From: Methylotenera versatilis 79
GTDB taxonomy: Bacteria > Pseudomonadota > Gammaproteobacteria > Burkholderiales > Methylophilaceae
Assembly (NCBI RefSeq): GCF_000384375.1
Contig: NZ_ARVX01000001.1
Coordinates: 806,001 to 870,000, forward strand
Direction: 5' to 3'
Length of the DNA: 64,000 nucleotides
Below, piece after piece: positions 42,173 to 63,721 of the stretch; position 1 is the first letter of the stretch; every line of letters begins with the position of its first letter. Made by a program: the position numbers and the translations under genes. The notes beneath the pieces are model-generated. The model was not told the DNA's origin, did no database searches, and saw only the letters and a list, made by a program, of their open reading frames with translations.

Positions 42173-44017
42173 ATGTGTGGAATTGTAGGCGCAGTCGCTA
42201 AAAGAAACGTCGTATCTACGCTAATAGAAGGCTTAAGTCGGCTGGAATATCGCGGCTACGATTCAGCTGGAATTGCAATACTCAATAGCAACGGCATTGA
42301 GCGTGTGCGGGCGGTTGGGCGCGTAGCCGCGATGACAGAAAAAGCGCACGATTTAAAATTAAGCGGATTTGTTGGTATCGGCCACACACGCTGGGCTACG
42401 CATGGCGGCGTAACTGAAAGTAATGCGCATCCGCATGTTTCCCCTAAACAAGAAAATCCAACAATCGCCGTGGTACATAACGGCATTATTGAAAACCACG
42501 ATGAACAACGCGCAAAATTAAAAGCGCTTGGTTACGAATTTTATTCGCAAACTGATACCGAAGTGATCGCTCACTTAATCCATCATTATTTCGCAAAATC
42601 GTCTGATCTATTAGCCGCAACCAAAGCCGCCATCGCTGAATTAACAGGCGCATTTGCAATTAGTGTGATTGCAGTGAGTCAACCCGATTTGATGGTGTGT
42701 GCGCGCTTAGGCTGTCCGCTGTTGATTGGCTTAGGGGAGGATGAAAATTTTATCGCTTCAGACGTTTCAGCCGTGCTTTCTGTGACGCGTAGAGTGATTT
42801 ATTTAGAAGATGGCGATATCGCCACGTTAACAACCGATGCTGTGACTATTTACGGTAAAGATGGCGCCTTAGCCACGCGTAAAGTGCATACTAGTGATGT
42901 TTCGCTAGCAAGCTTAGAGCTTGGCCCTTACAGCCACTTTATGCAAAAAGAAATCTATGAGCAGCCAGTAGCACTTAACGACACCATTGAGGCATTAATC
43001 GATGACGGCGCATTTAGGCCAGAGCTATTTGGCAAAGGTGCAGCAGATGTATTTAAGCAGCTGGATAGCATCTTAATATTAGCCGCTGGCACCAGTTATT
43101 ATGCCGCCTTAACCGCCAAATATTGGTTAGAGGGTATCGCGAAAGTACCTTGCAATGTAGAAGTCGCCAGTGAATATCGTTATCGTGAATCGGTACCAAA
43201 TCCCAATCAACTCATCGTCACGCTTTCGCAATCGGGTGAAACCTTAGATACGATGGAAGCCTTAAAACACGCCAAATCACTAGGCCAAGAATTAAGCTTA
43301 AGCATTTGTAACGTGCAAGAAAGTGCGATTCCACGCGCATCGCAATTGGTTTTCTACACACGTGCAGGCGCAGAGATTGGCGTAGCATCTACCAAAGCAT
43401 TCACCACACAATTAGTGGCTTTATTTGTATTAGCCGCCACTTTAGCTAAACAAAAAGGCATACTTAACACCGAAAAAGAACAAGAATATCTAGGCGCATT
43501 ACGCCAATTGGCCGGCAGCGTGCAATTTGCATTGAATTTAGAGCCGCAAATCCGCGAATGGGCAAAACGCTTTGGTGACAAAGAACACGCGCTATTCTTA
43601 GGCCGTGGCGTGCACTACCCAATCGCTATGGAAGGCGCGCTTAAACTCAAAGAAATCTCATATATTCACGCAGAAGCTTACCCTGCCGGTGAGCTTAAAC
43701 ATGGCCCATTGGCATTGGTAGATAACAACATGCCAGTGGTAGTGATTGCGCCAAATGATGCATTGTTAGAAAAAGTAAAATCCAACATGCAAGAAGTCAA
43801 AGCGCGCGGCGGCGAGCTATTTGTATTTGCCGATGCCGATAGCCACTTTACAGAGTCTGAAGGTGTGCATGTCATACGCACACCACGCCATGTGGGCATA
43901 CTATCCCCTATTTTGCATACGATTCCAGTGCAGTTGCTGGCGTATCATGCGGCATTGTTAAAGGGAACGGATGTGGATAAGCCTAGGAATTTGGCTAAGT
44001 CGGTCACGGTTGAGTAA
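42173..44017 (+). CDS. glmS: Glutamine-fructose-6-phosphate aminotransferase
   Basis: 614 aa. Begins MCGIVGAVA with the N-terminal nucleophile Cys after Met removal, glutaminase domain to about 220, then two SIS isomerase domains ([28 protein letters not shown]) and the C-terminal LAKSVTVE. First step of amino-sugar synthesis, adjacent to glmU as is common. Confidence 0.97.
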
Positions 44018-44050
44018 CGATAAGTTAATATGAAATAAGAAAGAATTCAT

Positions 44051-44449
44051 ATGCAGTTTTTTCTAAGAACTCTATTAGTTATACTTTCTATTTATATTTT
44101 GGTAAGCGTCATTTACATGATATGGGCTGTAATTTACAGACCAGAACAAATTGACGAAAAAGGTGAATATAGTTTTAAACTATATTACTTTTCTGATAAA
44201 AAATATTTGCTTAGAAAAATACTTTTTCTAGGGGCTTTTTTGGGATATGTCATCATAATTGGTGCGGGAGCTTATCAATTACTTTATTGGGTCCCTTATT
44301 TATCTGGTTCAGATATTGACGGGGATTGGAACTCTACAAGACGTTGGATTTCATATTTATTTGGTTGCGGTGTTGGCGGTGCAACTTACCTCCAATTATC
44401 ACTGCATGGATATAATCAATATATGAAAAGTATAAAAGAGCCTAACTAG
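44051..44449 (+). CDS. Small membrane protein of unknown function
   Basis: 132 aa with three hydrophobic segments (about 5-27, 57-80 and 100-117). No family recognised. Lys/Tyr-rich loop between the first two (YSFKLYYFSDKKYLLRK) suggests a cytoplasmic basic segment. It follows glmS by 33 bases on the same strand but is not a normal glmS partner, and its base composition is low in G+C. Confidence 0.55.
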   Translation: MQFFLRTLLVILSIYILVSVIYMIWAVIYRPEQIDEKGEYSFKLYYFSDKKYLLRKILFLGAFLGYVIIIGAGAYQLLYWVPYLSGSDIDGDWNSTRRWISYLFGCGVGGATYLQLSLHGYNQYMKSIKEPN

Positions 44450-44458
44450 ATTTAAAAC

Positions 44459-44670
44459 TAGTCAGGGTTGCCCGACGGCAAGTTACTTTCTTTTGCTTGT
44501 CCAAAAGAAAGTAACCAAAGTAAACGACACCCCATGCCATGACCTTCGGTTTCCCTGCGCTACTCAACGAATCAGGCGGCTGCGGAACTCGCTTCGCTCA
44601 GACAGTCCTCGCCGAAAACTCCTGATTCGTCTGCGTTGCTCGGCACGGCATCAGGGGATTGCAAGTCAAA
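44459..44670. repeat. Hairpin-rich intergenic repeat element
   Basis: The first part is a perfect hairpin with 14-bp arms, GTTACTTTCTTTTG at 44482-44495 and CAAAAGAAAGTAAC at 44502-44515. A second dyad has CGAATCAGG at 44568-44576 against CCTGATTCG at 44621-44629. Outer sequences (CCCCATGCC and GGCATCAGGGG) also pair imperfectly, so the whole unit can fold as a long imperfect inverted repeat. The TTACTTTCTTTTG...CAAAAGAAAGTAACC core is known from many proteobacterial genomes as a dispersed element of unknown function that often yields false small genes. It is G+C richer than its surroundings. Confidence 0.65.
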
Positions 44671-44728
44671 ACCACCTGTAAATTTAAGCATAGATGATAT
44701 TTTTTGAGGTTTTAATATGTTAACTTCA

Positions 44729-44764
44729 TAAGCAAAAAGCCTAACTAACTAGGCTTTTTGCTTA
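44729..44764. terminator. Bidirectional terminator before the sigma-54 activator gene
   Basis: Perfect 15-bp arms, TAAGCAAAAAGCCTA at 44729-44743 and its complement at 44750-44764. It stops the minus-strand activator transcript and any rightward one. Confidence 0.85.
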
Positions 44765-44791
44765 AAAATAATGGTTAACTTAAGTTCTGCC

Positions 44792-45970
44792 TTAAGCAAT
44801 CAGATTCAATTCTTTTAAACGTGCACGCAAAATATTACGACTAATACCTAATAATTTTGCGGTATGTACTTGGTTATTATTGCAATGATCATACGCTTTG
44901 CGCACAGTAATCGCGTTGATTAGCTCATATAAATTAGGTAATTCTTGCTTGAAAAGTCTGGAAAGCAGATTTTCAATATCTTGAGATCTAACCTCGGTTG
45001 ATGTTGTTGGAACATTTAAGAAGTGATCATCACTTTCATGAACACTTATGGGTGTAAATTTACTGGTAATGTAAGGTAAATGCAGATCTTTAGGATAAAT
45101 TACACCGCCAGAAGAGACCAATAAAGCGCGGTGGATAGTGTTTTCTAGCTCTCGAATATTACCTGGCCATGCGTAGGTTTCTAAGGCATGGACTGAAGCG
45201 GCTGATAGGTGTGGTGTCGATGTATGTAAACGTCCCGTATAAACTTTTAAGAAATGATTCACTAGCGGAAGAATGTCGCCGATGCGTTCGCGCAGTGGTG
45301 GCAACTCAATCGGCACAACTTTGATTCGATAGTATAAATCTTGTCTAAAATTTCCCGCATTTACCGCATCTTCCAAATTGACATTTGTCGCGGCGATTAG
45401 CCTGACATTGATTTTTTGAGGCTTGCGTGAGCCGACGCGTACGATTTCTCTTTCTTGAAGAACGCGAAGCAGTTTTACTTGGGTCGATAAAGGCAAATCG
45501 CCAACTTCATCTAAAAATAAAGTCCCTCCACTTGCGCTCTCAAACCAGCCTTCTTTGGCGGAAATGGCACCCGTAAATGAGCCTTTTTCATGACCAAATA
45601 ATTCGCTTTCTACCAATGATTCAGAAAAGGCGCCGCAATTAATGGCTGCAAAAGGTCCATTTCTGCGCGCACTTAAATCATGCAGACGCCTAGCAATTAA
45701 TTCTTTACCTGTTCCAGTTTCGCCAATAATTAATGCGGTTGCGTCGCTAGCGGCCACCCTTTCAATCAGTGCTAAAAGTTTTTTAGATTTTGGGTCGTTG
45801 AACACCAGCGCACTTGCGCGGATGGATAAGCTAACAGCCGAAGGATTAGGATGTTCGATGACACCATGACTGCTATCGTCTTGAAAGCCGCGCAACTCAG
45901 TGTTAGATAACCATGGTTTAGATTGCATGCTGATGGATGTTGACCTAATGATAACTCGGTGAATATACAT
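44792..45970 (-). CDS. Sigma-54-dependent transcriptional activator without receiver domain
   Basis: 392 aa. Only a short N-terminal part (about 1-48) precedes the AAA+ domain, so there is no receiver, PAS or GAF domain. Walker A GETGTGKE at 83-90, the sigma-54 contact loop GSFTGA at 130-135 (the usual form is GAFTGA), Walker B LFLDEVG about 151-157, the RxDLYYR region about 209-215, and a Fis-type HTH at the C-terminus (about 362-392, LLGISRNILRARLKELNLIA). It belongs to the group with PspF and HrpR-like activators, which are controlled by protein-protein contacts or constitutively. It is divergent from the 46541 gene, whose promoter is a -24/-12 type, so it is the likely activator of this island. 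Confidence 0.88.
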   Translation of the reverse strand: MYIHRVIIRSTSISMQSKPWLSNTELRGFQDDSSHGVIEHPNPSAVSLSIRASALVFNDPKSKKLLALIERVAASDATALIIGETGTGKELIARRLHDLSARRNGPFAAINCGAFSESLVESELFGHEKGSFTGAISAKEGWFESASGGTLFLDEVGDLPLSTQVKLLRVLQEREIVRVGSRKPQKINVRLIAATNVNLEDAVNAGNFRQDLYYRIKVVPIELPPLRERIGDILPLVNHFLKVYTGRLHTSTPHLSAASVHALETYAWPGNIRELENTIHRALLVSSGGVIYPKDLHLPYITSKFTPISVHESDDHFLNVPTTSTEVRSQDIENLLSRLFKQELPNLYELINAITVRKAYDHCNNNQVHTAKLLGISRNILRARLKELNLIA

Positions 45971-46207
45971 AACTTTCTATCTAATTAATAATTATATATA
46001 GTTATTTACATATACTCATTATGCATATAGGAAGTTTGCGTATTTATCGTAAAATTTTTCTCTCGTCTAAAAAGCAAATTTTCTAGTGCAGTCAAAAAAG
46101 TAGATTAAATTTTAGTATTTGGATATTTATAAATGACGAATTTAAGTACCTAATTATTTTGCGGTGAGACGAATTGCGATTTTTGGTAAGAGTGGTTTAA
46201 TTTAATA

Positions 46208-46227
46208 GCTGTTTCTGTAGCAACAAA
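46208..46227 (+). promoter_or_regulatory. Putative upstream activator site 1
   Basis: GCTGTTTCTGTAGCAACAAA. It contains a near-dyad TGTTTC-N4-GCAACA (five of six symmetric positions). It is 17/20 identical to the site at 54201-54220 and lies about 170 bases upstream of the -24 element, a normal distance for enhancer-binding proteins. Confidence 0.6.
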
Positions 46228-46377
46228 AAAAACGTAAAACACTGTTCCTACATCACCAGAATCATCAACATGTAAATGCTCAATAAAATTAATTATTGAT
46301 CACTATTCTTTATTTTATAGTTATAAATCAACCATATAGAAACATAACCCAGGTATTTTCAAGTTGCGTATACAGAG

Positions 46378-46392
46378 TGGCACAATAGTTGC
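46378..46392 (+). promoter_or_regulatory. Sigma-54 (-24/-12) promoter 1
   Basis: TGGCACAATAGTTGC: the -24 GG (46379-46380) and -12 GC (46391-46392) are 12 bases apart as required, and TGGCAC-N5-TTGC matches the consensus. It lies about 150 bases before the gene at 46541. Confidence 0.85.
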
Positions 46393-46540
46393 GCTATAGC
46401 TCGTGAGTCGGTTTTTCCAAATAGCCCATGTTTTGCAGATTCTAGGCTTGCTTTGGTAGCAGTTAAAGCCGCAACGCGTTGAGGCTAACGCAATTGATAC
46501 ATAACTCGGGAGTGGTAAATGAATAATGCGGGAGTAGTAA

Positions 46541-48883
46541 ATGAGTAATCTAAATAATTTAATAAAAAAGACCGTTTATTTTGCGGTGTTGATGGCATTT
46601 TCAACAGCGACAACCTATGCGGCGGAAGAAAAAGCTGCGGCTGATACTATTGCAAAGCCACAAGCTGAGCAAAAAAAACCTGCTGCCGCCAAGCTGTGGT
46701 CATGGCAACAGGTACAAAACCAAGCGGTACCAGTAGTAAAGCAAAAGGCCTGGGTGCGTACGCCAGTAGATGCTTTTGTGCTATCACAATTAGAAGCCAA
46801 GGGCATCAAACCGTCTCCAGATGCTGATCGCGCAGCGTATATTCGTCGTGCTACTTTGGATGCTTGGGGTGTGATTCCCACTACTGAAGAAGTGCGTACT
46901 TTTGTAGAAGACCGTTCGCCGAATGCTTATGAAAAGTTAGTAGACCGTTTACTGGCATCACCTCGATATGGTGAGCGCCAAGCACGTCGCTGGCTGGATC
47001 TGGCTCGTTATGCGGACAGCACCGGTTTTCAAGGTGACCAGACACGTCCAAATATGTGGCGTTACCGCGATTATGTCATCAACTCGTTTAATCAGGACAA
47101 GCCGTTTGATCGCTTTGTGAAAGAGCAGTTGGCGGGAGATGAGTTATTCCCAGGTGACACAGAAGCATTGGTCGCAACGGGTTTTATCGCTGGTTTTCCC
47201 GATAATCGTAACTCACGTGATCTTATTCAGCGTAAATACCAAATCACTACTGACATTACAGATACTGTTGGTTTGGCATTACTTGGCACGACTGTGGGTT
47301 GCGCCAGATGTCATAACCACAAGGCTGACAAAGTAACGCAAAAAGACTATTTTGCTTTACAGGCTTTCTTTTCTAATGTCAGCGCAGTAGACAATGTTCC
47401 GGCTCCCAAAAATGATCAGGAAATCCAGTATCAACAGGTGCAGGCCAAGTGGGAAGAGGCTACCAAGGATATCCGTGCGCAGCGCACTGCTATTTTAGAT
47501 ACGGTACGTGATAAGGCCTTACAGTATCACAAAGAACGTTACTTAACTGATAGCCGCGACTCTATATTCAAGCCAGAAGGACAATGGAATGCGCTGGATC
47601 GCTGGGTAAATCATCGCTTGACTAATGTCACTACCGATAATGAATTAGGCGCCTATCTGAAAGAGTCTGCAGAGAAAGAAAGCGATAATTATGTGCCAGG
47701 TAATGCAGAGAAGTATGCGCAATATAAAAAACTTGGTGATGATCTGAAGAAGTTCGACAAGCTTAAACCAGCTAAAGGCTCAGACACTATTTCAGCTATG
47801 ACTGAGCTCGGCCATAGTGATGCGCCGCCTACTTTTGTGTTCTTTGGCGGTAATCATGAACGCCCACTTGATGAAGTTCAACCAGCTTTCCCGGTTGCAT
47901 TAACGGATGAGAAGCCAAATATCGTGCCTACCGAGATTTCATCGGGCCGTCGTACTGCGCTTGCCAACTGGATTGCCAGTCCGCAAAACCCGCTTACGGC
48001 GCGCGTATTTGTGAATCGCGTTTGGAATCAGTATTTTGGAACAGGCATTGTACGTACAGTCAGTGACTTCGGCCGTGCAGGAGACAAACCAAGTAATCCC
48101 GAATTACTGGACTATTTAGCAGGCAATTTTGTATCGCAGGGTTGGAGCGTGAAAAAGCTGCAGCGTGAAATATTGCTATCTAGCGTTTACCGTCAGTCTT
48201 CATCTTATCGTGAAGATGCCTATAAAGCGGATCCTGAAAACAAGCTGTTAGCGGTGTTCCCACGCAAACGTTTGGAAGCCGAAGAAATTCGTGACTCCTT
48301 GCTTGTCGCATCTGGTCAGCTGGAAGAAAAAGTAGGCGGCCCAAGCGTATTCCCACCTGTTCCGGGCAATTTGGGCGCAGGCAATTTGTGGGAAGTTTCT
48401 AAAGATTCCAAGGATTTCAATAGACGCAGCCTGTATGTATTTACGCGTCGTAGTGTGCCTTATCCATTGCTGGAAACTTTTGATATGGCCTCTGCACAAC
48501 AAGTGCATAGCAAGCGTGACGTAACAACCACGCCACTGCAAGCACTGGCGCTATTTAATAGTGATGTAGTGTTTGGTTGGTCTCAGGCATTGGCTGGTCG
48601 CGTGATACGCGAGGCGGGCAATGATGAATCTGCACAGTTGGATAAGTTGTATCAGATACTGTTTGCACGTAAACCTGATCAGGCAGAAAAAGCCACTTTG
48701 GTTTCATTCCTGACCAATCACGAAAAAGAGATTGTTCAAGAAAAAAGCACGGATGGAAAACTGGCAATTGCGTTGCCGACTGGCTTAAAAGATGCAAAAG
48801 TGACCAATCCGATTCGAGCCGCAGCTTTGGTTGATCTGGTGCATACAGTTGCAAATTCCAACGAGTTTAGTTACCGGTTTTAA
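46541..48883 (+). CDS. DUF1549/DUF1553 protein (PSD1-like) with a haem-c motif
   Basis: 780 aa. A signal peptide (about 1-28) is followed by a DUF1549 domain (about 70-290) with RRATLDAWGVIPTTEEV, RWLDLARYADSTGF and the haem-c site CARCH at 254-258 (TVGCARCHNHK). The DUF1553 domain follows (about 470-760) with TARVFVNRVWNQYFGTGIV and RRSVPYPLLETFD. In planctomycetes these domains form large proteins usually with an N-terminal PSCyt1 cytochrome, which is absent here. Function of the family is unknown. Periplasmic, first gene of the sigma-54 unit and followed by DUF1501, its usual neighbour. Confidence 0.85.
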   Translation: MSNLNNLIKKTVYFAVLMAFSTATTYAAEEKAAADTIAKPQAEQKKPAAAKLWSWQQVQNQAVPVVKQKAWVRTPVDAFVLSQLEAKGIKPSPDADRAAYIRRATLDAWGVIPTTEEVRTFVEDRSPNAYEKLVDRLLASPRYGERQARRWLDLARYADSTGFQGDQTRPNMWRYRDYVINSFNQDKPFDRFVKEQLAGDELFPGDTEALVATGFIAGFPDNRNSRDLIQRKYQITTDITDTVGLALLGTTVGCARCHNHKADKVTQKDYFALQAFFSNVSAVDNVPAPKNDQEIQYQQVQAKWEEATKDIRAQRTAILDTVRDKALQYHKERYLTDSRDSIFKPEGQWNALDRWVNHRLTNVTTDNELGAYLKESAEKESDNYVPGNAEKYAQYKKLGDDLKKFDKLKPAKGSDTISAMTELGHSDAPPTFVFFGGNHERPLDEVQPAFPVALTDEKPNIVPTEISSGRRTALANWIASPQNPLTARVFVNRVWNQYFGTGIVRTVSDFGRAGDKPSNPELLDYLAGNFVSQGWSVKKLQREILLSSVYRQSSSYREDAYKADPENKLLAVFPRKRLEAEEIRDSLLVASGQLEEKVGGPSVFPPVPGNLGAGNLWEVSKDSKDFNRRSLYVFTRRSVPYPLLETFDMASAQQVHSKRDVTTTPLQALALFNSDVVFGWSQALAGRVIREAGNDESAQLDKLYQILFARKPDQAEKATLVSFLTNHEKEIVQEKSTDGKLAIALPTGLKDAKVTNPIRAAALVDLVHTVANSNEFSYRF

Positions 48884-48962
48884 GCAATAAGATTTAAATC
48901 GGCAAAAATTTTAAACCCAGACAACTTTTATAAAATAATTGAATAATATTAAGGATAGCATC

Positions 48963-50402
48963 ATGAACAATCAATCTCGCAGAGACTTTTTACTTAAAGC
49001 CGGCATAGGCCTAGGGGGCATTGCAGCCGGCGGCTTCTTGCCAGGTATTGGCTTTTTAACAGCTGCACAAGCGGCAGAGCTTATTGATCCACTAGCGCCT
49101 AAACAGCCACATTTTGCCGCTAAGGTTAAATCCGTCATCTGGCTACATATGGATGGCGCACCTAGTACGTTAGATTTATATGATTACAAACCCGACCTGA
49201 TTAAGTTGTCTGGCCAAGAAGTACCCGCTTCATTCCTGAAAGGTATCAAGACCAGTACGCAAGGTGGCGTCGGCAAGCTTTACGCTTCAAAGCGTGAGTG
49301 GAAGCAACACGGGGAAAGTGGTGCATGGTTTTCAGACCTAGTACCTAATATTGCTAAGCATGCAGATAAGATTGCCTTTATCAAATCTAGTACCACGGTT
49401 GGTGCAACACACGATATTTCTATCCTCAAATTGAATACCGGCGATTTGAATCCAGGCCGCCCTTCATTAGGCGCTTGGATATCCTATGCGCTGGGTACAG
49501 CAAATCCAGACTTGCCTTCCTACGTGGTGCTGTATGGTGGTAAAAAAGAGCCACAAGCTGGTTCAGTCAATTGGAGTTCAGGCTTCTTGCCAGCTGTGTA
49601 TCAAGGTACGGCATTCCGTCCAGGGGCATCGCCTATTTTGCATCTTGAGCGCCCTGAGTTAATGGCTGCTGGCCAGCAACGCGGCAACTTTGATTTGCTG
49701 AAACGCTTGAATGAAAAACGTGGTGAGCGTTATCCCGAAGATACAGAGTTGCAAGCCAGAGTGCGTTCTTATGAGCTAGCTTATCGTATGGAATCTGCAG
49801 CGCCAGAAGCAGTAGATTTGAGTAAAGAAACTGATGCAACCAAAGAGTTGTATGGTCTAAACGACGAAGCAACTAAGGATTACGGTACTAATATGTTACG
49901 TGCTCGCCGCCTAGTTGAGCGTGGCGTACGTTTTATTCAAGTTGTTTCAGGCCCTACTGATATTGAGGGCGAAAGCAGAAACTGGGATGCACACCAAGAT
50001 CTTGAAAAAAATCATGGCGCCCATGCCAAGGCTGTTGATAAGCCGATTGCAGGCTTACTGGCCGATCTTGAATCTCGTGGCTTGCTAGAATCTACGCTTG
50101 TCGTGTGGACCTCGGAGTTTGGCAGGACATCTTACGGACAAAGCGGTACAGGCCGTGACCATAATCCCTGGGGTTATACACAATGGATGGCGGGCGCTGG
50201 CGTTAAAGCTGGTACCACTTTTGGCCAAACAGATGAAGTCGGTTTGCAGTCTGTAGGAAAAACAGTAGATACCTATGATTTGCACGCCACAATTCTGCAA
50301 CTGATGGGCCTTGATCACTTGAAAACCACGTTCTTGCATGATGGCCGTTCTGAGCGTCCGACTGTTGTGTATGGTGAAGTGATTAAAGAGTTACTGGCTT
50401 AA
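48963..50402 (+). CDS. Tat-exported DUF1501 protein (alkaline phosphatase-like superfamily)
   Basis: 479 aa from ATG 48963, chosen because AAGGA lies eight bases upstream. Twin-arginine signal (SRRDFLLKAGIG) and hydrophobic stretch ending AQAAE. The DUF1501 body includes VKSVIWLHMDGAPSTLDLYD, TTVGATHDISIL, WTSEFGRT and GRDHNPWGYTQW, with conserved Asp and His residues like those that bind metal in sulfatases and phosphatases. Substrate unknown. It usually accompanies DUF1549/DUF1553 proteins; here the gap is about 80 bases. Confidence 0.85.
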   Translation: MNNQSRRDFLLKAGIGLGGIAAGGFLPGIGFLTAAQAAELIDPLAPKQPHFAAKVKSVIWLHMDGAPSTLDLYDYKPDLIKLSGQEVPASFLKGIKTSTQGGVGKLYASKREWKQHGESGAWFSDLVPNIAKHADKIAFIKSSTTVGATHDISILKLNTGDLNPGRPSLGAWISYALGTANPDLPSYVVLYGGKKEPQAGSVNWSSGFLPAVYQGTAFRPGASPILHLERPELMAAGQQRGNFDLLKRLNEKRGERYPEDTELQARVRSYELAYRMESAAPEAVDLSKETDATKELYGLNDEATKDYGTNMLRARRLVERGVRFIQVVSGPTDIEGESRNWDAHQDLEKNHGAHAKAVDKPIAGLLADLESRGLLESTLVVWTSEFGRTSYGQSGTGRDHNPWGYTQWMAGAGVKAGTTFGQTDEVGLQSVGKTVDTYDLHATILQLMGLDHLKTTFLHDGRSERPTVVYGEVIKELLA

Positions 50403-50432
50403 TTATTATTTATATAAGTGGGTATTTATATC

Positions 50433-50474
50433 AATGGCACACGGAACTAGACATGACTAGTTTCGTGTGCCATT
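50433..50474. other. Long inverted repeat after the DUF1501 gene
   Basis: 18-bp arms at 50433-50450 and 50457-50474 (17 of 18 complementary, core TGGCACACG against CGTGTGCCA) with an ACATGA loop; GTGGG and CCCAC extend the stem outside an internal loop. No T tract follows, so it may be an mRNA-stabilising or partial-termination hairpin rather than a standard terminator. Confidence 0.6.
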
Positions 50475-50539
50475 GCCCACTACTTAACACTTAAATATTT
50501 TAAGTGCTTTATGTCTACAAGTTTGTAATTAAAGTAAAA

Positions 50540-50935
50540 ATGAAAAAAAAGATTTATCAATATTTAGCAATTGCCTTAATTGCAATGGCAGCTATTACTA
50601 CACCCGTATTTTCCTATAGTGAAGTCGACGAAGACTTTATGACAGCGATGGAAGATTTAAATAAAAGTCTGACTTCAAACTTGGCCTTGAAAGATGTAGC
50701 AGCATCTGCCTCTGAAGCGTCAGAAATGCAAAAAATGTTTGATGAAGTCGAGGCATTTTTCCTCAAGAAAGCAGATGCCGCTGATGGCGTGAAATGGGCG
50801 CAGGAAAGTCGTGATCTTTCTGCTTTGATTGCAAAGTCAGTCTCAGCCAACGACTTTGACGCCGCTTCGCAAAATGCTGTGGCTTTATCTAAAACCTGCA
50901 AAGCTTGCCACAAAATTTATAAAAAGAAGGATTAG
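50540..50935 (+). CDS. Periplasmic c-type cytochrome, c'-like
   Basis: 131 aa from ATG 50540 (a longer frame from 50504 gives a poor leader). Signal peptide ending VFSYSE, all-helical Ala/Ser/Glu-rich body and a single haem site CKACHKIY close to the C-terminus, the arrangement of cytochrome c' and c556 types. Second such cytochrome in the island is at 53341. May carry electrons or bind NO; not determinable here. Confidence 0.8.
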   Translation: MKKKIYQYLAIALIAMAAITTPVFSYSEVDEDFMTAMEDLNKSLTSNLALKDVAASASEASEMQKMFDEVEAFFLKKADAADGVKWAQESRDLSALIAKSVSANDFDAASQNAVALSKTCKACHKIYKKKD

Positions 50936-50986
50936 CTTTTTAAGCTTGATTCAACCTTTATATTCAATTACTCAAGGAATTTACCC

Positions 50987-51589
50987 ATGAAACGATTACT
51001 ACTTACGGCCTTGTTGGCTAGCGTGATTTCATTACCAGCCGCTGCTGCGCTTAAAGAAGGTGATAAAGCGCCGGACTTTACCACTCAAGCATCTCTGGAT
51101 GGCAAGGCTTATACCTTTTCACTCAAAGAAGCGCTGAAAAAAGGGCCGGTTGTCGTGTATTTTTACCCTTCTGCTTACACTGGTGGATGCAATGTTCAAG
51201 CGCATACATTTGCCCAGAAGTATGAAAAATTTGCTGCTGCGAAAGCAACAGTCGTCGGCGTGTCGCTGGACAATATTGAGCGACTGAATGAGTTTTCCGC
51301 AGACCCTGATTATTGCGCAGGCAAGGTATCGGTTGCTACAGATATTGATGGCAAGATTTCAAAATCTTATGAATTGGCGATACGCGATGCCGTAGCTGGT
51401 AAGAAAGACACGCGCGGTAAAGACATCAATCACGGTTATGCAGAACGCACGACTTTCGTGGTGACGCAGGATGGCAAAATTGCCGCGACAATTGGCGGCA
51501 TTAAACCTGCAGAAAATGTAGGAAAAGCGCTTGAAGTGGTTGAGAAAATAGCGGCAGCAAGCCCAAATAAGGCAATAGGGTCTAAGTAA
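50987..51589 (+). CDS. Exported peroxiredoxin (PrxQ/AhpC-TSA type)
   Basis: 200 aa. Signal peptide (1-20, ending AAA) so periplasmic. The peroxidase core KAPDFTTQASLDGKAYTFSL and VVVYFYPSAYTGGCNVQAHTF holds the peroxidatic Cys68; the second Cys110 (DPDYCAGK) may be the resolving Cys. The GGCN motif replaces the more usual T-x-x-C environment, so activity should be tested. Periplasmic peroxiredoxins are less common than cytoplasmic ones; the neighbours are haem proteins, which suggests peroxide protection. SD AAGGAAT precedes the start. Confidence 0.82.
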   Translation: MKRLLLTALLASVISLPAAAALKEGDKAPDFTTQASLDGKAYTFSLKEALKKGPVVVYFYPSAYTGGCNVQAHTFAQKYEKFAAAKATVVGVSLDNIERLNEFSADPDYCAGKVSVATDIDGKISKSYELAIRDAVAGKKDTRGKDINHGYAERTTFVVTQDGKIAATIGGIKPAENVGKALEVVEKIAAASPNKAIGSK

Positions 51590-51591
51590 GT

Positions 51592-52272
51592 TTGTTTAGA
51601 AATTATTTTGCATTATTTAGCATGTTAAGTTTTTTTGTCATTCCAAACGTTATTCCACCTGTCATGGCTGAAACCACATTTGTAGATCAAGAAGATGTTG
51701 CCATCCGTTTTGGCGGCGGCAATCTTGAACTGGGTAAAAACAAATCCAAGTCAGAGCTTTGTATTGAGTGCCATGCGAATGCTGATTCCTTAGAAAAATC
51801 CGGCATTGGCGTGCCCCAGCTTGCGGGACAATATGCTGGATATTTGTTCAAGCAATTGCGCAATTTTAAATCAGGGGAGCGCAAACACTCTGTGATGAGC
51901 AAAATGGTAGAGCACCTTAATGACGAAGACTTAGAGAATATTGCTACGTATTTTGCTAATCAACCCGTTATGCAAGGTAAAGGCAGTAAAACAAACGCAA
52001 TCGCGCAGAATCTGTTTCTGCGTGGTGATTCAAAACGCAACATCATGTCTTGCAAAAGTTGTCATGGAATGGATGGTAAAGGCAGTCATTCCGCGAATGA
52101 TATTAACCCTGTCATTGCTGGACAAAGTCAGTTTTACCTACGTGAACAATTACGCAACTGGCGATCTGCGGCACGGACAAATAGCCCTGACCAGGTGATG
52201 AATGTGATTGCAAAGTCACTGACAGATACTGAGATAGAAGCATTGGCAGAATATATTTCTGACATGCCATAA
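51592..52272 (+). CDS. Diheme cytochrome c (c4-like)
   Basis: 226 aa starting at TTG 51592, two bases after the peroxiredoxin stop; ATG 51622 is a possible alternative. Leader ending VMAE, then two class I domains with haem sites CIECHANAD (about 58) and CKSCHGMDGKG (about 153), each followed by an M-containing loop. The pair of similar domains is the cytochrome c4 pattern. Probable soluble or membrane-bound electron carrier to a terminal oxidase. Confidence 0.8.
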   Translation: MFRNYFALFSMLSFFVIPNVIPPVMAETTFVDQEDVAIRFGGGNLELGKNKSKSELCIECHANADSLEKSGIGVPQLAGQYAGYLFKQLRNFKSGERKHSVMSKMVEHLNDEDLENIATYFANQPVMQGKGSKTNAIAQNLFLRGDSKRNIMSCKSCHGMDGKGSHSANDINPVIAGQSQFYLREQLRNWRSAARTNSPDQVMNVIAKSLTDTEIEALAEYISDMP

Positions 52273-52314
52273 ACCATATAACTACATAGCGTACCAACGC
52301 TTAAAGGAAACAAC

Positions 52315-53313
52315 ATGAAAACAAAAAAACCATCACTCATACTTAAACAGTCATGGATTCTAGGCACATTATTTACTTCAGTAACCATTATTGGTGCGCT
52401 TCCAGCATTTGCTGAGGAAGCCGTCGCCCCAGCAGTGACGCCACCAATTGCAGGAGTAATCGCTGGCGGTTTAGAGCTAAGGCCGATTAAAAACGGCTTT
52501 ACAGGAACGGAAGGCCCCATTGCTTTACCAGATGGCAGTGGTTTTATCTTTACTGAAACGCAAGCAAACCGTATTACTAAAATTGGCCTAGATGGCAATA
52601 CGAGCAATTTCATCGCGGAAAGCAATGGTGCAAATGGCTTAGCGTTTTCAGCCAATGGTGATTTATATGCAGTGCAAACGTTGAAACCTAGCGTAGGCAT
52701 CATCTACCCAAAAGAGCATGCAAAAGTGTTGGCGAGTCAATTTAACGGTAAGCCATTAAATCGTCCAAATGATCTGGTCATTGATAAAAAAGGCGGTGTG
52801 TATTTCACGGATCCTGGCATAAATCCTAAACCGGGAGAAGCCTCAACGGGCCAACCAGCAGTTTACTATATCAAGCCAAGTGGTGAGTTGGTGCAGATTA
52901 TCACGGACATTCAACGCCCTAACGGCATTCAACTTAGCCCGGATGAGAAAGTTTTATACGTTGCGAATACTTTCGGCGAATATGTGTTTGTTTACGACGT
53001 TGCAGAAGATGGCTCCATCGGGCCACGTCATAAATTCGCCTTGCTTGACGGCTATCGTAAAGCCGAAAATGGATTTAGCAGTGGCGCCGATGGCTTGGCG
53101 ATAGATGCGGAGGGTCGCTTATATGTGGCGACTACTATTGGCATTCAAGTGTTTGATAAGGCCGGCATAGCACTAGGCATTATTGAACTGCCGAAAGCGC
53201 CGCAAAACCTTGCTTTTGCAGGTAAAGATAAAAAGACACTTTACGTAGTTGGTCGTGGGGATGCCTATAAAATCCCAATGTTAACGACGGGCTACGCAGG
53301 TCGAGTTAAATAA
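52315..53313 (+). CDS. SMP-30/gluconolactonase-like beta-propeller protein
   Basis: 332 aa. Long basic leader and signal region (about 1-35, ending AFAEE). Repeated propeller strands include NGLAFSANGDLYAV, RPNDLVIDKKGGVYFTD, RPNGIQLSPDEKVLYVAN and GADGLAIDAEGRLYVAT, with Asn/Asp metal-site residues as in SMP-30 lactonases. Exported. Could hydrolyse lactones; substrate unknown. AAAGGAAAC precedes the start. Confidence 0.82.
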   Translation: MKTKKPSLILKQSWILGTLFTSVTIIGALPAFAEEAVAPAVTPPIAGVIAGGLELRPIKNGFTGTEGPIALPDGSGFIFTETQANRITKIGLDGNTSNFIAESNGANGLAFSANGDLYAVQTLKPSVGIIYPKEHAKVLASQFNGKPLNRPNDLVIDKKGGVYFTDPGINPKPGEASTGQPAVYYIKPSGELVQIITDIQRPNGIQLSPDEKVLYVANTFGEYVFVYDVAEDGSIGPRHKFALLDGYRKAENGFSSGADGLAIDAEGRLYVATTIGIQVFDKAGIALGIIELPKAPQNLAFAGKDKKTLYVVGRGDAYKIPMLTTGYAGRVK

Positions 53314-53340
53314 GTAATTAGAAGTCTTGATTGAGAAAAT

Positions 53341-53841
53341 ATGACAAAACTACAGATTAAATCCATACAGCTTAAGTCCATTGCTACAGTCATTGTTACA
53401 ACAGTGCTTATGGTTACATCAACGGCTTCTCTGGCTGAGCAGACACCCAAACCTGAAAAATTGATTCAATGGCGACAGTCCGCCTACCGCATAATTGAAT
53501 GGAACGTTTCACGTATCAAGTCTTCGATTCAGGGAACTTACAACAAAGCTGAGGTGGTCGCTGCTGCCAATGCAATCGCGGGCATCGCCAATTCAGGATT
53601 GCCAGTTTTATTTGTGCCTGGTACGGAAAAAGGCAAGGGTTGGCATGAAACAGCCGCTAACGCAGAGGTGTTTAAAGATAAAGCGAAATTTACAGAACTA
53701 TCGAATAACTTTAGTAAAGAAGCGACCGAGTTAGCCAAAATAGCGGCGAGTGCTAATGATGCATCGGCTATCAAAGAGCAGTTCGGCAAAGTGACGCGCA
53801 GTTGCAAAGCTTGCCATGATGATTTTAAAGGGGATGATTAA
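53341..53841 (+). CDS. Cytochrome c'
   Basis: 166 aa. Signal peptide (about 1-31, ending SLAEQ), then a four-helix body beginning RQSAYRIIEWNVSRIKSSIQGTYN (typical of cytochrome c', with the Arg/Tyr/Asn-rich first helix) and the haem site CKACHDDF near the C-terminus (about 155). Cytochrome c' proteins bind NO and some act as electron carriers. 28 bases after the SMP-30-like gene. Confidence 0.88.
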   Translation: MTKLQIKSIQLKSIATVIVTTVLMVTSTASLAEQTPKPEKLIQWRQSAYRIIEWNVSRIKSSIQGTYNKAEVVAAANAIAGIANSGLPVLFVPGTEKGKGWHETAANAEVFKDKAKFTELSNNFSKEATELAKIAASANDASAIKEQFGKVTRSCKACHDDFKGDD

Positions 53842-53858
53842 GCTAAAAGTTTTTCAAG

Positions 53859-54143
53859 ATGCGAGCCACTATAACTAAACTAAATTTCTTATATGGTAAT
53901 TATCAGGCGCTGACGGATAATAATATTGGAATTTCGTTCTCTGTAGTAGATGGGGAGAAGCTTAATCTTCAGGAAATTATAGAAATTGACCTTCCTAACT
54001 TGGTCGCAAATCAACGAATTGTTAGGGTTCGTGACCAAAAAAATATCTCAGTCAAACTTGGTGCGAATGATCTTCACGACCTCAATCAGCATTCTAGTTA
54101 TCATGGAGACAGCCGTACGCCATTCAAGCATCGCTTAGAATAA
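53859..54143 (+). CDS. Small hypothetical protein
   Basis: 94 aa, no signal peptide or membrane segment. Mixed alpha/beta composition with NIGISFSVVDGEKLNLQEII and FKHRLE at the end. No family recognised. Last gene before a terminator and 17 bases after the cytochrome c' gene, so it is probably in the same transcript. It could be a spurious reading, since it lacks a good ribosome binding site. Confidence 0.35.
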   Translation: MRATITKLNFLYGNYQALTDNNIGISFSVVDGEKLNLQEIIEIDLPNLVANQRIVRVRDQKNISVKLGANDLHDLNQHSSYHGDSRTPFKHRLE

Positions 54144-54162
54144 AATACACTATCTATTTAAG

Positions 54163-54199
54163 AGCCTTCTGTTTGAAAAACAACAGTGGGCTTTTTTGT
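54163..54199 (+). terminator. Terminator of the first sigma-54 unit
   Basis: AGCC-TT-CTGTT at 54163-54173 pairs with AACAG-TG-GGCT at 54182-54192 (interrupted by one small internal loop), followed by a T run. The T run directly borders the second activator site. Confidence 0.7.
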
Positions 54200-54200
54200 T

Positions 54201-54220
54201 GCTGTTTCCCTAACAACAAA
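54201..54220 (+). promoter_or_regulatory. Putative upstream activator site 2
   Basis: GCTGTTTCCCTAACAACAAA, 17/20 identical to the site at 46208-46227 and containing TGTTTC-N4-ACAACA. It lies about 135 bases before the -24 element at 54338. Confidence 0.6.
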
Positions 54221-54336
54221 CCAATGTGCATATTTATTCGATTTATACCCTGTGTTTTCGGTTGTATTTAATATTAGTGATTAAAAACAATATGTTATCT
54301 GGTGTTTTTTTGTGATTTTACGCATTATAAAATGTC

Positions 54337-54352
54337 TGGCACAGGACTTGCA
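54337..54352 (+). promoter_or_regulatory. Sigma-54 (-24/-12) promoter 2
   Basis: TGGCACAGGACTTGCA: GG at 54338-54339 and GC at 54350-54351, 12 bases apart. Matches TGGCAC-N5-TTGCA exactly. It drives the metallo-beta-lactamase-fold gene at 54411. Confidence 0.88.
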
Positions 54353-54410
54353 ACGCAACTAATAACATTCATATGAATGAATTTTTAATATTTGAGCTAA
54401 AGGATTAAAG

Positions 54411-55928
54411 ATGTCAGTAATAACAACAATTACTTCTAAGACAGGTGGTTTAAAGCTGCGCCAGCTTACCGCTATTGCCTTGGCAGTGGCTTCATTTTCA
54501 GCCTGGGGACAAGATGCGCCATCACTTGCTGCTTCGACTGAAGTACTTGGTGCAACTCAATTAAAATCGATTGAGTTTTCAGGCGCCGGGCATTGGTACC
54601 AATTTGGCCAAGCGCCGAATCCAAGCTCATCTTGGCCGCAATTCAATGTAAGTAGTTATAAAGCCACCATCAATTTTGAAGCACCTGCTGAACGTGTACA
54701 GATTACCCGTAAGCAAGCCGTTGAACCTAAACGTGTTCGCCCAGTGCCGGTTGAGCAAAAGCCTGATCAATATGTGAGTGGTAATACGGCTTGGAATTTA
54801 GCGCCAGCAGCGGGTGCTGCGCCAGACTCAGCGCCTGTTGCTCAACCACAAGTAGCCGCAGTTGAAGAGCGCGTGTCAGAGATTTGGGCGACACCACAAG
54901 GCTTTCTGAAAGCTGCGCAAGCTAACAATGCCACATCGAAAAAAGTAAAAAAAGGCGTGGAAGTTTCATTCACGCAGGGTAAGAATAAGTATGTCGGCAT
55001 CATCAATGCCAAAAATGAGGTCAGCAATGTCAAGACTTGGATCGATAGCCCAGTGCTAGGCGATACATTGGTTGAGTACAGTTATAGCGATTACAAAGAT
55101 TACAGCGGCATTTCTTTCCCTTCTAATATCCTCCGCAAACAAGGCGGTTATCCTGTATTGGCTTTAGCGGTTAAATCTGTAACGCCGAATGCTGAGGCAA
55201 ATATTACGGTACCTGCCGAGTTAAGCCAGGCGGACACATCAATTAAAGTGACATCTGATCCGCTTGTGCCGGGAGTGTTCTACTTGAAAGGCGGCACCCA
55301 CCATAGCGTGGCGATTGAGCAGGCAAACCAAATCATTCTGGTTGAAGCGCCTTTAAATGAAGCGCGCTCAGAAGCGGTGATTGCCAAGGTGAAAGAAATC
55401 ATCCCGAACAAGCCCATCACTTTTTTAGTGAATACACATCATCACTTTGACCATTCTGGCGGCTTGCGTACTTATGTGGATGAAGGCGCAACGATTGTGA
55501 CGCATAAACTCAATGAGCCATATTACAAAAAAATCTGGGCCAATGCGCATACGCTTAGTCCTGATCGCTTGGCCGCTTCTCATAAACCTGCAAAGTTTAA
55601 AACCTTTTCAGACAAGCTAGTGTTGCCAGATGCAGCCCATCCTGTAGAGATTTATACCATCGCTGGTAATACGCATAATGATGCTTTCGCATTGGTTTAT
55701 TTGCCAAATGACAAAGTGCTGGTTGAAGCGGATGCCTATACGCCACCTGCAGCTGGTGCGCCCTTGCCTACTAGCGTAAACCCTTACACGGCTAATCTGT
55801 ATGACAATATCAAGCGTCTCAAGTTGAATGTTGAGCAGATTGCTGCGTTACATGGCCCACGTGTCACCAAGTTGGAAGATATAGAAGCAGCAATCGGTAT
55901 CAAGCCACAGACAGCTAGCAATAATTAA
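54411..55928 (+). CDS. Exported metallo-beta-lactamase-fold hydrolase with long N-terminal domain
   Basis: 505 aa. Leader ending AWGQ (about 1-33), then a roughly 245-residue N-terminal region with no recognised family, in which GAGHWYQFGQAPNPSSSWPQ and Pro/Ala-rich segments stand out. A C-terminal metallo-beta-lactamase domain (about 280-495) has the zinc-binding HHHFDH at 343-348 (NTHHHFDHSGGLRTY), a further His in NTHNDAF (about 427) and the Asp in VEADAY (about 441). The sites are complete, so it should be a hydrolase. Substrate unknown. Single-gene unit with its own sigma-54 promoter and terminator. Confidence 0.85.
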   Translation: MSVITTITSKTGGLKLRQLTAIALAVASFSAWGQDAPSLAASTEVLGATQLKSIEFSGAGHWYQFGQAPNPSSSWPQFNVSSYKATINFEAPAERVQITRKQAVEPKRVRPVPVEQKPDQYVSGNTAWNLAPAAGAAPDSAPVAQPQVAAVEERVSEIWATPQGFLKAAQANNATSKKVKKGVEVSFTQGKNKYVGIINAKNEVSNVKTWIDSPVLGDTLVEYSYSDYKDYSGISFPSNILRKQGGYPVLALAVKSVTPNAEANITVPAELSQADTSIKVTSDPLVPGVFYLKGGTHHSVAIEQANQIILVEAPLNEARSEAVIAKVKEIIPNKPITFLVNTHHHFDHSGGLRTYVDEGATIVTHKLNEPYYKKIWANAHTLSPDRLAASHKPAKFKTFSDKLVLPDAAHPVEIYTIAGNTHNDAFALVYLPNDKVLVEADAYTPPAAGAPLPTSVNPYTANLYDNIKRLKLNVEQIAALHGPRVTKLEDIEAAIGIKPQTASNN

Positions 55929-55945
55929 TCTTTTTTTAAAATTAA

Positions 55946-55982
55946 CTGAGTGCCTAAATCTTATTAGGCACTCAGTTTTTTT
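55946..55982 (+). terminator. Terminator of the metallo-beta-lactamase gene
   Basis: Perfect 12-bp stem CTGAGTGCCTAA / TTAGGCACTCAG around ATCTTA (55946-55975), then seven T. Confidence 0.9.
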
Positions 55983-56027
55983 ATTCACGCTAACCAGATT
56001 TGTTATAGCAAAAACAAAATTTAAACG

Positions 56028-57392
56028 ATGACCGTTAACGCATCTCCATCGCGTTTAGACCAGGCTTTGGCTTATCACCAAAACGGTCATTGGTCACAGG
56101 CATTGGATTTGTATCAACAAGTCTTGGCCGATCATCCACATCAGGCAAATGTCCTCAACAATGTCGGCATTATTTTGCAACAAATTAAACGCAACGATGA
56201 TGCTCTAACCTACTTTGAGCTCGCTTTGGCGATTGAACCTGATCATCCGCCATCATTATTCAATCGCGGTAATGTATTGCGTAGCTTAAATCGCCCTCAA
56301 GATGCCGTGCATAGCTATGACCAAGTGTTGCAAACGATGCCGAATCACCCTGAGGTATTGAATAACAAAGGCAATGCATTGCGTGCGCTCAACCGATTGG
56401 ATGATGCCCAAGAAAATTATCAGCTTGCTTTAACTCATGCGCCCGATTATGCAGATGCACGCTGGAATGCTGGCTTATGCTTTTTACTTGCCGGTCACTA
56501 TCAACCGGGCTGGCAGGAGTACGAATGGCGCTGGGCGTCTGAGCTTCACGCAGAAAAACATTTGTTTACACAGTCCTTATGGGACGGCACAGACTCTTTG
56601 CAGGGTAAAACTATCTTATTGCATGCCGAACAGGGGCTTGGCGATACATTACAGTTTTGCCGCTATGCCAGTTTAGTCAAAACGCTGGGAGCGACTGTGG
56701 TGCTAGAAGTACAACCGCAACTGGTTAATTTGATAAGAACTTTAAAAGGTGTCGATCTGCTTATCGCACGTGGTCATTCACTGCCGAAATTTGATTACCA
56801 TTGCCCATTACTCAGCTTGCCCAAAGCATTTGCTACCAAGTTAGATACTATCCCTCATACGTCAGCTTATATTGCGATTGATGCTAAAAAAGTACGTGCA
56901 TGGCGGAATAAGCTGGGCGGGACTGGGCTGGTCAATCAATCAAAATCGCGTGTAGGTTTGATATGGGCAGGCAGTGCGACGCATTCGAATGATCATAATC
57001 GTTCTATAGCCTTACAAGAGCTCGCGTCAATAGTGGACCAAAATGCAGATTTTTATGGGCTACAAAAAAAGTTGCGGGAAGGGGATGCAGAATTCTTTCA
57101 TCAGCATCCCCAAATAAAATATCTGGGTGGACATATAAAAGATTTCACAGATACCGCAGCAATCATCACTTTAATGGATGTGGTTATTACAGTAGATACC
57201 GCTGTTGCGCATCTGGCTGGCGCCATGGGCAAGCCAGTCTGGATATTGTTGCCTTACAGCCCTGATTGGCGCTGGCTCTTAGGTCGTAGCGACAGCCCTT
57301 GGTATCCAACAGCAAGGTTATTCAGGCAAACAGCTATTGGTGATTGGTCATCGGTGTTGCAAGAAGTCAAACAGGCTTTGCAAAAGGCTTAA
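56028..57392 (+). CDS. TPR protein with glycosyltransferase 9-like C-terminal domain
   Basis: 454 aa. Three or four TPR units in the first 150 residues (AYHQNGHWSQALDLYQQVLADHPHQANVLNNVGI and similar), then a GT-B-like domain with LLHAEQGLGDTLQFCRYASL and the nucleotide-sugar-type motif ITVDTAVAHLAGAMGKPVWILLP (about 385). Proteins of this build are common in betaproteobacteria; the substrate is unknown. No signal peptide, so cytoplasmic. Stop lies two bases from the convergent efflux gene. Confidence 0.75.
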   Translation: MTVNASPSRLDQALAYHQNGHWSQALDLYQQVLADHPHQANVLNNVGIILQQIKRNDDALTYFELALAIEPDHPPSLFNRGNVLRSLNRPQDAVHSYDQVLQTMPNHPEVLNNKGNALRALNRLDDAQENYQLALTHAPDYADARWNAGLCFLLAGHYQPGWQEYEWRWASELHAEKHLFTQSLWDGTDSLQGKTILLHAEQGLGDTLQFCRYASLVKTLGATVVLEVQPQLVNLIRTLKGVDLLIARGHSLPKFDYHCPLLSLPKAFATKLDTIPHTSAYIAIDAKKVRAWRNKLGGTGLVNQSKSRVGLIWAGSATHSNDHNRSIALQELASIVDQNADFYGLQKKLREGDAEFFHQHPQIKYLGGHIKDFTDTAAIITLMDVVITVDTAVAHLAGAMGKPVWILLPYSPDWRWLLGRSDSPWYPTARLFRQTAIGDWSSVLQEVKQALQKA

Positions 57393-57394
57393 GG

Positions 57395-60126: not shown

Positions 60127-60133
60127 AGTATTT

Positions 60134-63355: not shown

Positions 63356-63640
63356 ATGGGGAGGAACTCCAGGTATTTCCGTATAGATGTCAGGAATGAA
63401 TTTTTTTAATGAATCCAGACAAAGGTTGCACTATTGGCTGTACTTATCGAAAACTACAAAACCCCACATAAGAACAGCAATACCTAAATGCAAAAACCAT
63501 ACCAAGCGAAATTGCCTCAATTAGTCCTAAATCAGCTGTTTTTCGAAACAAACTTGCTGAATTTTGTGCACATGATGATGACTGCTGTTGTATGGCAAAC
63601 AGTTGAGTGTTTTGTTAAACATGGAAATTGCAAAAGAAAA
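63356..63640. other. Upstream region of the RND operon
   Basis: About 285 bases without a gene. The minus-strand promoter of the RND genes should lie here, but no convincing -35/-10 or -24/-12 element was found. A dyad at 63535-63552 (GCTGTTTTTCGAAACAAA) resembles the sigma-54 island motif with two bases less spacing. Confidence 0.4.
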
Positions 63641-63667
63641 GGGACTTGAGGAAATCCCCCAAGTCCC
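63641..63667 (-). terminator. Terminator of the TonB-dependent receptor gene
   Basis: Hairpin with arms GGGACTTG and CAAGTCCC and additional GG/CC pairs, followed on the minus strand by TTTTCTTTT. It lies 55 bases after the receptor stop codon. Confidence 0.75.
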
Positions 63668-63721
63668 TAAAAGAGCAACTTAATATTAGATTTGGTATTA
63701 GATTCTGGCGCAGCAAGCGGA

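Follow-up and report, generated by a model that had tools for sequence, protein, structure and literature searches.

A PSCyt2/PSD1-DUF1501 island of Methylotenera versatilis 79 carries the signature of a probable SfnR-type sulfur-starvation regulon

The DNA under study is a 64-kb stretch (the window; positions 806001-870000) of the 2.604-Mb single-contig genome of Methylotenera versatilis 79, in which a sigma-54 activator gene lies beside an island of genes for exported proteins, headed by a PSCyt2/PSD1 (DUF1549/DUF1553) and DUF1501 pair. Our best reading, to which we give a probability of roughly two in three, is that these genes make up the periplasmic arm of a sulfate-starvation regulon of SfnR type, dependent on sigma-54, which serves to scavenge organosulfur compounds. 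The class of the regulator, the dyads, the promoters, the gene set and the depletion of methionine (Met) in the products were all computed, and such a regulon is the simplest account of the activator class, the dyads, the promoters and the avoidance of Met taken together. What is new here is this sulfur-starvation signature. The excerpted text of one study states that nothing is known of PSCyt gene functions (PMC5615132), and we found no paper in the open-licence literature, judged mostly from search listings, that assigns PSCyt2/PSD1-DUF1501 pairs a sulfur role.

Results

Gene content of the island

All genes that an initial annotation of this DNA had placed in the island were recovered at the same coordinates. 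The activator (44792-45970, minus strand) carries AAA+ (Pfam PF00158) and Fis-type helix-turn-helix parts, with no receiver domain found by Pfam; it had been described as facing the gene run and is instead divergent from it. On the plus strand follow PSCyt2/PSD1, an exported mono-haem protein (46541-48883; Pfam PF07583/PF07587), and DUF1501 (48939-50402; PF07394), which are adjacent and co-oriented and both score over the Pfam cut-offs; this is the only PSD1 gene of the genome. Further downstream lie genes for a small exported mono-haem protein with a CKACH motif and no Pfam match (50504-50935) and for four exported proteins assigned by Pfam, namely an AhpC/TSA peroxiredoxin with two cysteines (50987-51589), a dihaem cytochrome c (51592-52272), an SMP-30/gluconolactonase-like protein (SGL; 52315-53313) and a cytochrome c' (53341-53841; PF01322). 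The same strand also encodes, at 54411-55928, an exported hydrolase of the MBL fold (PF00753) that carries an additional region at its N-terminus.

The run was originally counted as eight genes; the eighth, if the small open reading frame (ORF) at 53859-54143 on the plus strand was meant, is doubtful because it has neither a Pfam match nor a tblastn match in the stretches from four relatives. The portrayal of the island as a set of mostly exported products, five of them haem or redox proteins, holds: export-signal-like N-termini were found in 8/8 by a simple script rule, and the five consist of the peroxiredoxin and four proteins with CxxCH haem motifs. PSCyt2, the small mono-haem protein and cytochrome c' have one such motif each and the 51592-52272 protein has two. 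The motif of PSCyt2 reads CARCH, and C-x-R-C-H is invariant in 43 sequences. At Rfam gathering scores nothing was found in positions 44000-64000 of the window.

The activator belongs to an SfnR-type clade

To place the activator, a maximum-likelihood tree was built from 36 activators, omitting one island-linked sequence (from locus L077) that was lost in ORF picking. One group with support 100/99 holds 28 of the 36, including the activator of the window, 14 of the 15 near islands, its paralogues and orthologues, and four plasmid-borne ones, while eight other activators of these genomes fall outside; the tree program cautions that L161 and rows of the outside group have long branches. The clade includes a Burkholderia pyrrocinia activator adjoining msuE, sfnG and sfnB and a Sphingobium activator among ssu genes, and in three cases an SfnR-type member adjoins genes annotated as sfn or ssu. 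The remaining two plasmid activators come from records without annotation.

Within this genome, the two paralogues closest to the activator are 64% and 56% identical to it. One adjoins a TonB receptor, a PepSY_TM gene (both by Pfam) and TonB-ExbBD-like genes (by eye). Near the other are SsuD and three SfnB-like genes, of which one, like SsuD, scores over the NCBIfam cut-off. The Methylobacillus orthologues each adjoin an MsuE-like FMN reductase (by eye; the MsuE of genome G043, locus L110, is just below the cut-off). In G043 the orthologue is then followed by SsuA-like and SsuC-like genes, both below cut-off, and by TonB-ExbBD genes; by eye the same holds in G064, and these genes are not beside the orthologue in G024.

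Among 120 genomes, an SfnR-type activator (E<=1e-100) occurs in 22, comprising all five with PSCyt2 and 17 without it (hypergeometric 1.4e-4, a value that ignores kinship).

Promoters and dyads recur before the same genes

The initial annotation proposed two exact -24/-12 promoters and a shared upstream motif. The promoter of the MBL gene, TGGCACAGGACTTGCA (54337-54352, plus strand), matches the consensus in full, and that of the main operon, TGGCACAATAGTTGCG (46378-46393, plus strand), deviates in its last base. The motif forms part of a dyad, TGTTTCTGTAGCAACA (46210-46225), a predicted activator site 152 bp upstream of the -24 element of the main operon; its counterpart before the MBL gene, TGTTTCCCTAACAACA (54203-54218), has one mismatch and is likewise a predicted site, 118 bp upstream of the -24 element. 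By number alone, the -24/-12 elements in the window are unremarkable (5 against 4.19 expected, at up to one mismatch), and the motif occurs 7 times against 1.44 expected at the same stringency.

Of these seven, two exact matches are parS-like, as is probably a third that carries one mismatch. The sites read TGTTTCACGTGAAACA at 28674-28689 and 30520-30535, with a one-mismatch copy at 20979, and lie near parA/parB-like genes; those at 28674 and 30520 resemble the parS consensus, and as activator sites both were set aside.

The promoters and the motif draw their credibility from other genomes, where they reappear ahead of the same set of genes. We assembled regions upstream of PSCyt2, TonB receptor, MBL and rhodanese-like genes, 158 in total and 154 once near-duplicates had been discarded. 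A de novo dyad search ranked CTGCTG-N6-CAGCAG first, in 24/154 regions, where three shuffles gave at most 4 for any dyad; it also returned TGCCGG-N5-CCGGCA (11 regions) and poly-T dyads. The pattern TGYTK-N6-MARCA, chosen after the window and the sfn/ssu-like loci had been viewed, occurs in 56/154 regions, as against 0/154 for the reversed pattern and a mean of 0.68 (maximum 4) in shuffles, and in 41 regions a -24/-12 element lies downstream of it. Strict -24/-12 elements are present in 65/154 regions (reversed string, 1/154), and upstream of PSCyt2 in 25/76 (reversed control, 1). The proposed sigma-54 control and common regulon are supported by these recurring dyads and promoters.

Within this genome, the exact dyad TGTTKC-N4-GMAACA occurs in nine places. 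Two are the parS-like sites and four are accompanied by a properly oriented -24/-12 element: before the PSCyt2 operon, a cytochrome b561 gene (881400; this dyad is only about 50 bp from the -24 element), TonB-ExbBD genes (2264148) and a TonB receptor/PepSY_TM locus (2269296). The remaining three, at loci L136 and L144, with no -24/-12 element on the right side, and at L141, where a weak match lies inside a gene on the opposite strand, were taken as chance. A TonB receptor of 980 aa, whose C-terminal end occupies 63722-64000 (minus strand) and which runs beyond the window, has its own -24/-12 element with only weak dyads, and is 70% identical to a receptor near the Methylobacillus copy of the island in G064. 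This receptor, cytochrome b561, the TonB-ExbBD system and the PepSY_TM proteins, all absent from the initial annotation, are further members of the same neighbourhoods or regulon. Dyads of the form TGCTGM-N4-KCAGCA precede the SfnB-like and SsuD genes of this genome; no published SfnR binding site for comparison was found in the literature passages.

Products of the putative regulon are poor in methionine

Proteins of sulfur starvation are typically poor in Met and cysteine (Cys). Counting Met after residue 35, we found none in the activator, the peroxiredoxin, cytochrome c' or the MBL hydrolase (which also has no Cys in that part), one in SGL, three in PSCyt2 and one in the window-edge TonB receptor. 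Pooled with the small ORF, the eight proteins of the island have 21 Met in 2618 residues. Sixteen exported proteins were placed in the regulon on the strength of a dyad, a promoter or their neighbourhood. They have 29 Met in 6184 residues (0.47%), compared with 303 in 18043 (1.68%) for 71 background proteins; these, likewise chosen as exported by the script rule, come from roughly 400 kb of this genome plus the remainder of the window. None of 100,000 random sets was as low. The 16-protein set was assembled after most counts were known; it leaves out the membrane PepSY_TM and TonB/ExbB proteins and, at locus L107, the redoxin gene and those resembling HbpS and DsbD.

Comparison within families points the same way for the MBL hydrolase, which has no Met where seven MBL-fold paralogues have 0.90-2.08%. 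Among orthologues, Met content is 0.03% in SGL (n = 30), 0.03% in cytochrome c' (28), 0.09% in MBL (17), 0.11% in peroxiredoxin (62), 0.36% in TonB receptors (29), 0.39% in PSCyt2 (80), 0.70% in DUF1501 (75), 1.51% in homologues of the small mono-haem protein (44) and 2.59% in the dihaem cytochrome (51).

A side observation concerns L107 (G000:C1:2254331-2274330), where exported-looking proteins of 345, 347, 290 and 140 aa with no Met after residue 35 lie beyond the TonB-ExbBD genes and an exact dyad. The three scanned were those of 345, 290 and 140 aa, of which two gave no Pfam match and one matched DUF6152.

Conservation of the island in other genomes

The PSCyt2/PSD1 protein was found in 5/120 genomes, this one and four others of its family, and in 0/14 other genomes listed for the genus, a sporadic distribution. 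In 4/4 relatives the order PSCyt2, DUF1501, small mono-haem protein, peroxiredoxin, dihaem cytochrome, SGL, cytochrome c' and MBL is kept, with the PSCyt2-DUF1501 pair doubled in G064 and an extra peroxiredoxin in G035.

For a wider scan, six sequences were aligned and the alignment was run against 84,980 genomes, and the best 80 of at least 497 stretches encoding a relative were used; some of these loci come from one genome, and three are those of G064, G043 and G035. Almost all hosts belong to the Alpha-, Beta- and Gammaproteobacteria, and many are methanotrophs; a Verrucomicrobiaceae and a Bryobacterales metagenome-assembled genome are also among them. The choice by similarity biases this sample towards such proteobacteria. 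Partners were counted in the 55 loci with at least 5 kb on either side of PSCyt2, and were called anywhere in the locus by tblastn (at least 35% identity over half of the query) or by ORF cluster. DUF1501 was present in all 55, followed by peroxiredoxin (49), the dihaem cytochrome (38), the small mono-haem protein (34), a rhodanese-like protein (30), SGL and cytochrome c' (25 each), a TonB receptor (24), cytochrome b561 (22), PepSY_TM (21), ExbB (12), the activator (11), MBL and a DLH hydrolase (10 each) and RND (6). Of the 76 loci in which both genes passed, 74 have DUF1501 as the next gene after PSCyt2. Co-occurrence, which the initial annotation put forward as a check, holds for the conserved core, and the scattering that would have spoken against a unit is not seen for the PSCyt2-DUF1501 pair; SGL, cytochrome c' and MBL are loosely attached.

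A 55% identical homologue of the MBL hydrolase is carried on a plasmid of Methylosinus trichosporium OB3b, with no PSCyt2 near it within the 37 kb fetched. On this plasmid (L016, 900-24285) its neighbourhood includes genes with the annotations aryl-sulfate sulfotransferase and arylsulfatase, with sulfite dehydrogenase soxC annotated about 16 kb away, surroundings that suit a sulfur role.

Predicted folds of the core pair

DUF1501 had been called alkaline-phosphatase-like, a description for which we find moderate support. Its predicted model (pLDDT 66.8, pTM 0.76) gave 124 Foldseek matches at E<=0.001 to S1 sulfatases and relatives (best E 6e-6, probability 1.00), at low query TM scores (about 0.35 for the best; 0.26-0.38 among the 50 matches listed). 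The best sequence-profile match had E 0.007, and hhalign against one plasmid arylsulfatase gave no match. Residues D343, H345, H352, D400 and H401 (A2 numbering, which starts from window position 48960) do not vary across 47 sequences and may serve as metal ligands. A formylglycine sulfatase of the Cys type was rejected, since the protein itself contains no Cys and neither do 43/47 homologues; the presumed nucleophile position, aligned by eye, is L, V or T two residues before the invariant P165, and C/S-x-P-x-R is not found.

The AlphaFold2 model of PSCyt2/PSD1 (pLDDT 76.9, pTM 0.81) is almost entirely helical and had no match in the PDB at E<=0.001. The rhodanese-like neighbour, present in 39/82 sources, had no Pfam match in the one member scanned, and its profile matches PDB rhodanese domains (best 2e-6), a similarity that we count in favour of a sulfur role.

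Other features around the island

Directly 3' of the MBL gene is a TPR-like protein (56028-57392), of which a 53% identical homologue adjoins MBL in G035. RND-type efflux genes for an outer-membrane factor, an adaptor and a permease (57395-63355, minus strand; from reading and homology to relatives) lie between MBL and the TonB receptor; RND homologues adjoin PSCyt2 in Methylobacillus, and RND pumps lie near MBL in M. trichosporium OB3b. On the other side of the activator, the intergenic region 44460-44700 holds an inverted repeat, actttcttttgcttgtccaaaagaaagt, that by eye resembles a dispersed repeat.

Discussion

Taken as the periplasmic part of a sulfate-starvation regulon, the gene set suggests an attack in the periplasm on an organosulfur compound imported by a TonB receptor. 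The pairing of activator and site, the substrate, the reaction and the direction of electron flow are what we infer in the following scheme. When sulfate is short, the SfnR-like activator would bind TGTTKC-N4-GMAACA-type dyads and open the -24/-12 promoters of the PSCyt2 operon, the MBL gene, the TonB receptors, the TonB-ExbBD operon and cytochrome b561. A TonB receptor would then carry the compound into the periplasm, where PSCyt2/PSD1 and DUF1501 may attack it, by redox chemistry at the c-haem and by hydrolysis at a sulfatase-like metal site, and SGL and MBL could hydrolyse the ester or lactone left over. The small cytochromes, cytochrome b561 and PepSY_TM proteins would form the link between the haem chemistry and the quinone pool. 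Peroxide or nitric oxide (NO) would fall to peroxiredoxin and cytochrome c', and the freed sulfite, sulfate or sulfonate would enter via known uptake routes. A more ambitious proposal, which we offer tentatively and hold less probable than its negation, is that PSCyt2/PSD1 and DUF1501 constitute a new class of periplasmic organosulfur-cleaving machine, in which a haem-c protein of a fold unmatched in the PDB and a cysteine-free sulfatase-like partner process a large TonB-imported compound, with cytochromes leading to the quinone pool.

Several observations weigh against the sulfur-starvation interpretation. The activator falls in a branch adjacent to SfnR proper, not within it. The TGYTK-N6-MARCA dyad is missing from 98/154 upstream regions, three of the seven exact dyads of this genome other than the parS-like ones have no proper promoter, and the genome-wide excess at up to one mismatch is weak (54 against 34 for the reversed pattern), so that only exact or promoter-linked dyads were used. 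Neither DUF1501 (6 Met, 1.33%) nor the small mono-haem protein (4, 3.70%) nor the dihaem cytochrome (7, 3.66%) is poor in Met; for the island alone, drawing eight exported background proteins at random gave a value as low in 119/20,000 sets; and the absence of Met from the peroxiredoxin is shared by 3/12 other AhpC/TSA paralogues. When exported ORFs next to these loci serve as the reference, the depletion is mostly not significant, with lower Met only in SGL, cytochrome c' and peroxiredoxin; sampled stretches of the same genome were used as background instead because presumed regulon genes and spurious ORFs occur in the flanks. Finally, DUF1501 lacks the sulfatase Cys, and the rhodanese-like protein seems by eye to lack a catalytic Cys (loop consensus VSNHAGRAG).

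The frequency of PepSY_TM, together with TonB receptors of siderophore type, would also suit the acquisition of a copper or iron metallophore: the receptor would import the metal complex, PepSY_TM and the cytochromes would reduce it, and the hydrolases would open the ligand. Two scanned receptors score best against a siderophore-receptor model, one over its cut-off, and the PepSY_TM proteins FoxB and CrpH have been tied to iron or copper uptake (PMC13038864, excerpted text). The SfnR-type activator, the sfn/ssu-type dyads and the depletion of Met favour sulfur instead, and we judge metal uptake to be improbable.

We give a similarly low probability to the system proposed in the initial annotation, a periplasmic oxidation and hydrolysis pathway whose electrons would exit via c-type cytochromes, taken here as a general pathway for a carbon substrate. 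The exported redox proteins and hydrolases on which it was built, SGL and MBL among them, are present, and a carbohydrate role has been suggested for PSCyt genes of Verrucomicrobia; the excerpted text of the same work on freshwater Verrucomicrobia also reports sulfatase genes near PSCyt genes, which fits the sulfur reading (PMC5615132). A general carbon pathway would leave the Met depletion and the SfnR-type control unexplained, and we prefer sulfur supply to it because of the SfnR-type activator, the sfn/ssu-type dyads and the Met-poor products. Least likely is a peroxide/NO defence unit (peroxiredoxin and cytochrome c') within a sulfur-starvation regulon, to which PSCyt2/DUF1501 would be accessory. 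In its favour, peroxiredoxin is the most constant partner after DUF1501 and antioxidants of Pseudomonas aeruginosa rise under sulfur starvation (PMC12581299, in part); against it, the TonB receptors, DUF1501, SGL and MBL stay unexplained.

The closest known counterparts of the sulfate-starvation regulon proposed here are the sfn, msu and ssu genes under SfnR control in Pseudomonas and Burkholderiales, which share the activator clade, sigma-54 promoters and related dyads. Most targets of SfnR known so far either work in the cytoplasm as flavin monooxygenases or import small sulfones and sulfonates, whereas here we find exported haem proteins, hydrolases and TonB receptors. A peroxiredoxin is common to both: in P. 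aeruginosa, according to the excerpted text, sulfur starvation raises LsfA along with msu, ssu and sfn products (PMC12581299), and the constant peroxiredoxin partner of PSCyt2 thus fits sulfur starvation. Planctomycetes, in which these proteins are best known, and Verrucomicrobia have the same PSCyt2/PSD1 and DUF1501 families side by side, but with many PSCyt genes per genome, in contrast to the single PSD1 gene, SfnR-type activator and recurrent redox set of this island. The S1 sulfatases of the alkaline-phosphatase superfamily give the best Foldseek matches to the DUF1501 model, whose invariant residues could bind metal, and differ from it in the nucleophile Cys. The copper-regulated cruR-crtA-crpH operon of Bordetella likewise joins a TonB receptor to a PepSY_TM protein, under another regulator and with no PSCyt2/DUF1501 set mentioned in the excerpted text (PMC13038864).

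PSCyt2/PSD1-DUF1501 pairs are widespread, and the regulator class, the binding-site pattern and the sulfur-sparing composition give a first functional lead to them. If the proposed cleaving machine is real, many of the PSCyt2-DUF1501 pairs of Planctomycetes and Verrucomicrobia may also be desulfurising or related systems. A sulfur role, if true, would bear on the life of methanotrophs, methylotrophs and other proteobacteria where sulfate is scarce.

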